This document shows positions 42,643 to 45,342 of a stretch of DNA of 50,949 nt, piece after piece (within the stretch, counting starts at the first letter, position 1; every line of letters begins with the position of its first letter). The notes beneath the pieces are model-generated. The model ran no database searches. It was not told where the DNA came from and was given only the letters and a program-made list of their open reading frames with translations. The stretch covers positions 1 to 50,949 of the forward strand of contig JALGUG010000019.1 in assembly GCA_029820995.1 (NCBI GenBank), in the 5' to 3' direction. The DNA is from Candidatus Zipacnadia bacterium (GTDB lineage: Bacteria; Armatimonadota; Zipacnadia; JALGUG01). The translations under genes were made by a program, and so were the position numbers.

Positions 42643-42741
42643 TCGCGGGAAAACAGAGGGAGGTCCTCCATCGCAAAGGGGGAAGCAACATTAGGGCGGG
42701 GGGCTCAACGGCCGCCCCGGAACATCATGGAGGTGAGTGTT

Positions 42742-43425
42742 GTGCCCAAGCGTCGCGGCTTTACATTGATTGAGCTGTTGGTGGTGGTGGCGATCATCGC
42801 CATCTTGGCCGCCATTCTCTTCCCTGTATTTGCCCGGGCTCGAGAAAAGGCGCGCCAGGCGAGCTGTCAGTCGAACTTGAAGCAGATCGTCCTCGGCCTC
42901 AAGATGTACGAGCAAGATTACGATGATCTGGGCCTTGGCGGCGAGATCTACTGGAACAGCAATCCGGACTACTCGCGCTACTGGGGTATCCCGATTTACC
43001 CTTACACGCAAAACCGGCAGGTCTACATTTGTCCGTCCCGCACCGGGTTTACCTTTCGACTGCGCAATGACGTCACGGGATACATCGAGATCTGGGACGC
43101 CAGCTACGGCTACAACATGAATCTGGCCAGCGTGAAGATGACGTATCTGAAGCACCCCTCGGAGACCATTTACCTCCTGGACGCGTACACGCCCTGGCTG
43201 GACACGACAACCGACATCTACGACCGTGTTGGTGACGGCTACTACGAGGACACGGCCCTCGAAACGGACTGGCACAATGACGGCCTGAACGTGGCCTACG
43301 TGGACGGCCATGTGAAGTATCAGAAGCTAACCAATATCCGCTGGAACCAGATCTTCTGGAGGACTCAGGACATCAATCACGTGGACTACAATCGCGCAAT
43401 GAAGTCAATTACGGACCCCTACTAG
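42742..43425 (+). CDS. Type IV prepilin-like protein (Armatimonadota/Planctomycetes type)
   Basis: 227 residues from a GTG at 42742 placed 8 nt after GGAGG; an ATG at 42727 gives five more residues but lies inside that site. The leader PKRRG and cleavage before FTLIEL fit a prepilin-peptidase substrate, followed by the hydrophobic helix [20 protein letters not shown]. Then [19 protein letters not shown], typical of Armatimonadota, and MYEQDYDD. The C-terminus has [15 protein letters not shown], the DG motif of the DUF1559-type family. Such proteins often occur in many copies and are thought to be pseudopilins. Follows the GspF gene by about 100 bp; a hairpin terminator follows at 43512. Confidence 0.9.
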
Positions 43426-43511: not shown

Positions 43512-43541
43512 GCGAGAGCTCCCCGCATGGGGAGCTCTCGC
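43512..43541 (+). terminator. Perfect 13-bp hairpin after the prepilin gene
   Basis: GCGAGAGCTCCCC pairs with GGGGAGCTCTCGC around a GCAT loop, followed by CCTTAGG instead of a T-run. Very stable; termination or mRNA 3'-end protection. Confidence 0.6.
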
Positions 43542-43722: not shown

Positions 43723-43751
43723 TTGACAAGTGCGATAGGTCGCGCTATTGT
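43723..43751 (+). promoter_or_regulatory. Sigma-70-like promoter for the mraZ division cluster
   Basis: -35 TTGACA at 43723-43728, 17-bp spacer, -10 TATTGT at 43746-43751. Transcription would start near 43758, right in front of the phased repeats. Confidence 0.75.
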
Positions 43752-43760
43752 AAGTCCATC

Positions 43761-43820
43761 TTGTTCCGAACTGTGCCTGGCGAGTCCGACAAGTGCCGAA
43801 GCGTGTCGAAATCAGCCGAA
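43761..43820 (+). promoter_or_regulatory. Probable MraZ operator: 10-bp-phased CCGAA repeats
   Basis: Exact 10-bp register: CCGAA at 43766, CCGAC at 43786, CCGAA at 43796, TCGAA at 43806, CCGAA at 43816, with the 43776 position degenerate. MraZ proteins bind sets of direct repeats with 10-bp spacing near their own promoter (TGGG type in E. coli). Here the core differs, but position and phasing fit autoregulation. Confidence 0.6.
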
Positions 43821-43852
43821 TGCAATCAGATAGCTGACCAGGTGGGATCCTC

Positions 43853-44350
43853 TTGTTCCCGTGTCAGGGCGAGGCACAGACGACTGTAGATGGCAAGGGC
43901 CGGATCACCCTCAAGTCGCCCTACCGCGAGCATGTCCCTTCAAAGCTGTATCTCATGCGGGACGTAGACGGCTGTCTGCGCGTGCTGGACAAGCACGCGT
44001 GGGATGCTGTTGCTGCTCGGTTCGCGAGCATGGACCCGATGAGCCCCGAGACGGCGCTTGTCGAGCGGTTCTACATCGCCGGCACCGCCGAGGTGACAGT
44101 GGACCCGGCGGACGGCCGAGTCCGGATACCGGAGAAGCTTCTTCAGTGGCTTGGCGCGACTGACGATGACCGCCAGGTCACGATCGTACCGAAGGCCTCA
44201 CATCTTGAGTTGTGGCTCAGCTCACGATATGACGCATATCTGGAGCAGAACGCGGAAGATGGGACGTTGCGTGACTTGGCCTTGAGTCTATTCGCGGGTG
44301 GCCGTCAGCGCCAAGACCCGAACGCCACGGCAATTGAAGATGACGCATGA
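43853..44350 (+). CDS. mraZ: Transcriptional regulator MraZ
   Basis: 165 residues from a TTG at 43853 with AGGTGG seven bases upstream; no ATG fits. Two SpoVT/AbrB-like halves: TTVDGKGRITLKSPYREHV (typical of MraZ, DxKGR) and VDPADGRVRIPEKLLQWLG. The N-terminus reads FPCQGEA, slightly divergent from the family FxGEY. MraZ represses the cluster that starts with it and acts on the nucleoid. Overlaps rsmH by 4 bp. Confidence 0.93.
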   Translation: MFPCQGEAQTTVDGKGRITLKSPYREHVPSKLYLMRDVDGCLRVLDKHAWDAVAARFASMDPMSPETALVERFYIAGTAEVTVDPADGRVRIPEKLLQWLGATDDDRQVTIVPKASHLELWLSSRYDAYLEQNAEDGTLRDLALSLFAGGRQRQDPNATAIEDDA

Positions 44351-45342
44351 GCGGTAGCTCTTCCATCCACGTGCCCGTGATGCTGCGGGAAGTGGTGGAA
44401 ACGTTGCAGATAAGGTCGGGAGGCGTATGGGTAGACCTCGGTTGCGGTCCAGGCGGTTACACGGCAGAGCTGCTCCGGCGTTGCGCGCCGGACGGTCGGG
44501 TCATTGCCCTGGACGTGGACGAGGACGCTCTGGCCCTCGCGCGTCGGAACTTGGCTTCTTTTCCCCCGGAACGGATTTCCCTGGTTCGTGCGAACTTCAC
44601 CGAGTTGGCCTCCGTGTTGTCGGAGGCCGGCGTGACCACGGTGAACGGCTGCGTGTTGGATGCGGGGTTCAGCCGGGACCAGGTGCTGGGCGACCAGAGT
44701 CGGGGGCTGAGCTTTCTTAAGGACGAGCCGCTGGACATGCGGCTCGATCGCACCTTGAAAACTACGGCAGCAGACCTGGTGAACACGTTGGAGCAGCGTG
44801 AGTTGGCAGCGCTGTTCCGGGACTTTGGGCAAGAGAGGCAGGCCGGCAGAATCGCAGCAGCGATCGTACGACGTCGGCGTCAACGGCCGATCCGGACCAC
44901 ACTAGAGCTCGCGGAACTAATCACAGCAACGGTCTCCCCCAGGCCGCGTGGTAACAGGGTACGACACGCAGCCACCAAGGCGTTCATGGCCCTGCGCACC
45001 GCGGTAAACGATGAACTCTCCGCGCTCCGGGCCGGAATCGAGCAGGCTGTCCTGGCCCTCCAGCCCGGCTCCGGCCGCATGGTGGTCGTCTCGTACGACA
45101 GTAACGAGGACGGCCTCACCAAGCGGACCTTTCGCGATCTGGAGCGCGGCTGTCGCTGTCCTGCCTCTCTGCCCACCTGTGTCTGCGGCCGTAGGCCGGA
45201 AGTGAGGGTTCTGACCAAGAAGCCGGTTCGTCCCAGTCGCGAGGAGATCGCGGCCAACCCTTCCGCCCGCAGCGCTCGCCTGCGTGCTGTGGAGCGGCTG
45301 CCGGAGGTCAAGACGGACGCCGACGGTGCGGCATCACTCTGA
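44347..45342 (+). CDS. rsmH: 16S rRNA (cytosine-N4)-methyltransferase RsmH
   Basis: 331 residues. SAM-dependent methylation of C1402 of 16S rRNA at the P site. HVPVMLREVVETL, VDLGCGPGGYTAELL, then LDAGFSRDQVLGDQSRGLSF and DEPLDMRLDRTL, RRRRQRPIRTT, and a C-terminal CRCPASLPTCVCGRRPEV cysteine pair. The SAM-binding text LDAGFS differs from the usual DLGVSS but the rest is intact. ATGA overlap with mraZ. ftsL lies about 300 bp downstream. Confidence 0.95.
   Translation: MSGSSSIHVPVMLREVVETLQIRSGGVWVDLGCGPGGYTAELLRRCAPDGRVIALDVDEDALALARRNLASFPPERISLVRANFTELASVLSEAGVTTVNGCVLDAGFSRDQVLGDQSRGLSFLKDEPLDMRLDRTLKTTAADLVNTLEQRELAALFRDFGQERQAGRIAAAIVRRRRQRPIRTTLELAELITATVSPRPRGNRVRHAATKAFMALRTAVNDELSALRAGIEQAVLALQPGSGRMVVVSYDSNEDGLTKRTFRDLERGCRCPASLPTCVCGRRPEVRVLTKKPVRPSREEIAANPSARSARLRAVERLPEVKTDADGAASL

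Follow-up and report, generated by a model that had tools for sequence, protein, structure and literature searches.

A 10-bp-phased array between the promoter and the start codon of mraZ in a Candidatus Zipacnadia bacterium: a probable MraZ operator

The mraZ locus and its phased array

The stretch of DNA analysed here (50,949 nucleotides, the window) is a contig of the G000 assembly (5.5 Mb, 481 contigs). The mraZ gene, in most bacteria the first of the dcw cluster, lies on the forward strand at 43853-44350 and encodes 165 amino acids from a TTG start, with the sequence AGGTGGG 6 nt upstream. Its end is overlapped by rsmH (mraW; 44347-45342, forward strand; PF01795, 302.9 bits), at which the dcw cluster starts. 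An ftsI-like gene follows rsmH, and then genes that were labelled murE-like and murF-like from a reading of their translations. On the other side, a 427-bp gap separates mraZ from the gene of a prepilin-type protein (42727-43425), and both the promoter and the array described below are located inside this gap.

The initial annotation of this DNA had placed the mraZ promoter at 43723-43751, and this was borne out: a TTGACA beginning at 43723 is followed, after a spacer of 17 nt, by a TATTGT ending at 43751 on the forward strand, with 10 of 12 matches. Promoter-grade sites were found once in 3 kb versus 0.5 expected by chance, and the promoter search gave no second promoter-like site on either strand. 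TTGACA and TATAAT also directly precede the arrays in relatives of the same class. In the interval between the prepilin-type gene and the promoter, a perfect 13-bp hairpin with a 4-nt loop (GCGAGAGCTCCCC/GGGGAGCTCTCGC) was observed at 43512-43541. The hairpin has no T-run and is perhaps the terminator of the upstream prepilin-type gene.

Downstream of the promoter lies an array of seven to eight units in 10-bp register at 43756-43835, the end being approximate. Written in tens, it reads CCATCTTGTT CCGAACTGTG CCTGGCGAGT CCGACAAGTG CCGAAGCGTG TCGAAATCAG CCGAATGCAA TCAGATAGCT. The repeated element is CC(G)AA on the forward strand, which is (TT)CGG on the reverse strand. Given as forward/reverse pairs, the boxes are CCATC/GATGG (43756-43760), CCGAA/TTCGG (43766-43770), CCTGG/CCAGG (43776-43780), CCGAC/GTCGG (43786-43790), CCGAA/TTCGG (43796-43800), TCGAA/TTCGA (43806-43810) and CCGAA/TTCGG (43816-43820), and they are followed by a degenerate last unit, TCAGA/TCTGA (43826-43830). 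The second column of the unit is C in all eight units and the first column is C in six of the eight. Conservation is confined to columns 1-5, and the 5-bp spacers are not conserved. The initial annotation had described five phased CCGAA cores. Their positions and the 10-bp register were right, but only three of the five are exact CCGAA, since CCGAC at 43786 and TCGAA at 43806 are each one base off. The array is real and also longer than was claimed, as the units at 43756 and 43776, the latter skipped in that annotation, are in register and both keep the CC.

The statistics single out both the place and the period. In a column log-likelihood scan of the whole window, the array ranked first at period 10 for 4, 5, 6, 7 and 8 units, and at periods other than 10 the same stretch was not top-ranked. 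A shuffle test of 43723-43852 (periods 7-14, 4-7 units) gave the array a z of 6.4, and no period besides 10 exceeded a z of 1.8. Position 43756 is the sole position in the window with at least six of seven CC at 10-bp spacing. Within its own genome, this locus is the only one with the exact three-unit pattern, and few matches with one mismatch lie elsewhere. Searching many windows invites finds of this kind, but none of 4,000 dinucleotide shuffles was as good over periods 7-14, the array was the best of 50,949 positions, and it was found at exactly the place where relatives carry such arrays. A chance register is almost certainly the wrong explanation.

MraZ and the arrays in related leaders

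The mraZ product is a genuine MraZ. It matched PF02381 with two domains at 66.5 bits, against a curated cut-off of 23, and its AlphaFold2 model (pLDDT 89) matched the folds of PDB entries 1n0e, 9qlg and 9r4j with E values of 6e-12 to 8e-11. The best matches among solved structures are Mycoplasma MraZ, including promoter-bound MraZ. The first DNA-reading loop, D13-R17 (DGKGR; 43889-43903, forward strand), has the canonical length, and the second, D84-R89 (DPADGR; 44102-44119, forward strand), is one residue longer than DxxGR. The canonical length in both DxxGR loops, a usual though not obligatory feature of MraZ, is thus not present in this protein. It is the only MraZ of its class with the longer second loop, which is also present in other members of the phylum. 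A number of genomes have multiple mraZ-like genes, two or three each (G046, G060 and G073; L186-L188), and a divergent second mraZ-like copy (LDGSRLTIPR) without an array was seen in family f2.

Leaders of mraZ were sampled from relatives in the class, from relatives in the phylum and from other phyla, the last being found by an RsmH scan and serving as the control for orientation. The class sample comprised 46 genomes, in which the nearest MraZ is 32% identical to that of the window; no closer relative was found in the class genomes. The lineage of the window is isolated in the RsmH tree, in which f2 grouped with f8 and f9. In most of the array-bearing class relatives, the coding strand carries NGG boxes spaced exactly 10 bp apart right at the mraZ promoter. 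Family f8 has six to seven HGG boxes, CGG and AGG among them, f5 has arrays of GGG type, and f4 has GTGG arrays. These class relatives, with MraZ at most 32% identical, show coding-strand GG boxes and not CCGAA. A search of 291 phylum genomes for the CCGA(A/C) triple found that none of the 30 checkable loci from other genomes adjoins mraZ. Separately, family f21 (G178, G202, G216 and G092) contains many CCGAACCAAC-like 10-bp tandem repeats of up to ten units, and none of their checkable loci adjoins mraZ.

An MraZ operator is expected to have at least three units in 10-bp register, placed at the mraZ promoter over or after the start. Both features are found at 43756-43835, between the promoter and the TTG at 43853. 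A GTG/TGGG core on the coding strand was not found, and a GG core in register was found on the template strand. We consider it likely, with a probability of about 0.8, that this array serves MraZ as its autoregulatory operator. The link to MraZ had been proposed in the initial annotation from place and phasing, and it is now well supported by the position and phase of the array, by arrays found at the corresponding place in relatives, by the lack of any ordinary coding-strand array in this leader and by the single exact occurrence of the pattern in the genome. The further proposal that CCGAA is a new operator core was not established; the other strand reads as the ordinary GG box type, reversed.

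The proposed mechanism is drawn from the known biology of MraZ as an autorepressor (PMC8475190, PMC7761207). MraZ rings would occupy the seven to eight boxes, which all face the same side of the helix and extend from near the transcription start to a point 20 bp upstream of the start codon. Rings covering about +1 to +75 would hinder transcription of mraZ and of the dcw genes behind it, so that rings bound to the array could block these genes. That MraZ binds and represses here is what we infer. Since each MraZ has two similar reading loops, the ring could sit in either box orientation and would still cover the start site.

Explanations without MraZ are, taken together, improbable. One is that the array is bound by another regulator acting on the dcw cluster, or that the shape of the DNA acts, with MraZ merely encoded by the next gene. 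To our knowledge, the CCGAA core is unlike any known MraZ box, which speaks for this explanation. It is improbable all the same, as the place, phase and unit size equal those of the MraZ operators of relatives, the leader contains no other MraZ array, and the array has no phased A-tracts. Another is that the array acts as RNA, the repeats of the 5' leader being bound by protein or folded. The units would be part of the transcript, since they follow the predicted start site, but a period of 10 bp, that of a DNA turn, has no obvious sense in RNA, and we regard this explanation as very improbable. Folding gave no excess of RNA structure in the leader (z 0.77) and Rfam gave no match for it, even at an E value of 1; a structured RNA leader or riboswitch was rejected on these two results.

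Strand and core of the boxes

Boxes on the coding strand are the rule among the sampled leaders. Arrays with z above 3 were found on the coding strand in 31 and on the template strand in 1 of the 58 leaders from other phyla. In the phylum (127 leaders), arrays with z above 2.5 were found on the coding strand in 34 leaders and on the template strand in four. The orientation of MraZ boxes looks nearly universal, and a flip of the boxes is rare a priori because orientation is so strongly conserved elsewhere. In the leader of the window, GG boxes form no array on the coding strand (z -0.7 and -1.0 in two scorings), and on the template strand they form the strongest GG array of that kind among the 127 leaders (z 5.3), with the units TTCGG TTCGA TTCGG GTCGG CCAGG TTCGG GATGG.

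The array may be the usual GG box in inverted form, TTCGG on the template strand, and on the sequence comparisons we give this reading of the putative operator an even chance. HGG boxes are normal in family f8, and the five conserved positions of CCGAA/TTCGG with free 5-bp spacers are as in E. coli. A precedent was found in a genome of another class (G102, L277 1953-2000), in which TTTCCCG is repeated at 10 bp after the mraZ promoter (p 0.005) and the upstream ORF runs in the same direction as mraZ. On the template strand this is CGGGAAA; in the sister family f31, CGGGAA or AGGGAA boxes are found on the coding strand. Against an inverted GG box, the class PWM, which also scores the bases around the GG, gave the template-strand array a z of 2.9, and the core is known from one genome. 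The template-strand units also lack the GT of GTGG, yet the Lys associated with GT is retained in this MraZ (see below).

Two other strong template-strand arrays, those of family f2 (G042 and G001), were considered as support for inversion, and this support was weakened when upstream ORFs on the opposite strand were found. The 10-bp TGG arrays of these leaders are opposite to the mraZ strand and beside such an ORF (G042, L055 about 850-930; G001, L033). They may serve the other ORF, as they lie between it and mraZ. In G042, TAGAAT is present between two boxes, as is TATAAT in the mraZ promoters of f8. MraZ may control a second gene in f2.

The competing explanation within an MraZ operator is that the boxes are on the coding strand and have really changed, to about GTG-CCGAA (about GTGCCGAA), with the GG lost. 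With its extra residue, the second loop would have come to prefer CC over GG in the second half of the box. The correlation between loop and box in other genomes bears on this. Where the first loop has Lys or Arg, T before GG had a frequency of 0.67 and G of 0.64, versus 0.40 and 0.24 without it, in statistics that ignore shared descent. The two loops of MraZ may each read one half of the box, because the first-loop Lys/Arg accompanies the GT before GG, and the MraZ of the window retains this Lys. As a general observation from the class and phylum MraZ alignment, uncorrected for descent, a first DxK loop with Lys or Arg is associated with GTGG boxes, and one that has lost the residue with NNGG boxes.

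Several findings are consistent with a changed coding-strand box. The MraZ of the window alone in its class has DPADGR for DxxGR together with a canonical first loop, GTG is in register at 43773, 43793 and 43803, and the reading keeps to the coding-strand orientation that is the rule. The leader of another genome (G096, L279 about 1821-1860) contains GTGAC GTGAC GGGAC GTGAC at 10 bp (p 0.0007); this array keeps the GTG and loses the GG, and the second loop of its MraZ is longer (ENPSWR) by an insertion of the same length as that in the window. Nevertheless, the GTG columns of the window are within chance in the 7-unit test (p 0.16-0.57), and no clear GG or GTG array was seen in several other genomes whose MraZ is likewise lengthened in the second loop (G047, G051, G063, G065 and G074). 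The lengthening of the loop may have nothing to do with the box. A really changed box is possible though doubtful, and we regard as unlikely the specific proposal that MraZ re-evolved its DNA code, the insertion in the second loop having turned the GG half of the box into CCGAA in all seven to eight units. If true, a re-evolved code would be a natural co-change of a regulator and its multi-unit operator.

Comparison with known MraZ operators

The MraZ operator of E. coli is described as TGGGN boxes with a 10-bp spacing (Eraso et al. 2014, as reported in PMC8475190 and PMC7761207), and its sequence reads TGGGA/TGGGG/TGGGA at 10 bp directly before mraZ. The putative operator in the window resembles it in its tandem 5-bp cores, its 5-bp spacers and its location in the leader ahead of mraZ and rsmH. 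The cores of E. coli are three to four TGGG on the coding strand, whereas the window has seven to eight units with TTCGG on the template strand. For the Mollicutes, the boxes are given as (AAAGTGKN3)3 (Fisunov et al. 2016, as quoted in PMC5282649), and cryo-EM entries are available for the MraZ-promoter complex of M. genitalium (9r4j, 9sz7). The 10-bp units at the mraZ promoter and the fold of MraZ are the same. The core in the Mollicutes is a coding-strand GTG, whereas GTG in the window is in register in three units only and is not significant.

In Burkholderia cenocepacia, four repeats of 7 nt, separated by 3 nt, lie just after the -10 element of the promoter PmraBc and over the start site; their motif is a coding-strand GTG, and binding was shown by EMSA (PMC7761207). 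The layout in the window is similar, with repeats just past the -10 and over the start and a period equal to the 7 nt plus 3 nt of PmraBc. It differs from PmraBc in the strand and motif and in the number of repeats. Among the leaders of class relatives, that of G011 (TGGACTATAATGGTGTAGCAAGGATTGAGATGGACTAAATTGGAGTAATGCGG), for example, shares the layout of promoter and array, the exact 10 bp and the HGG core, in six to seven boxes. The boxes of G011 are on the coding strand and the first of them flank the -10 element, whereas the array in the window begins at about +1.

Compared with nearly all other surveyed bacteria, the array of this one genome appears to be unusual in the strand of its boxes, or else in their core. 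An operator with flipped boxes or a changed core would offer a natural experiment on DNA recognition by MraZ rings, on the importance of ring polarity for repression and on the half of the box that each loop reads.
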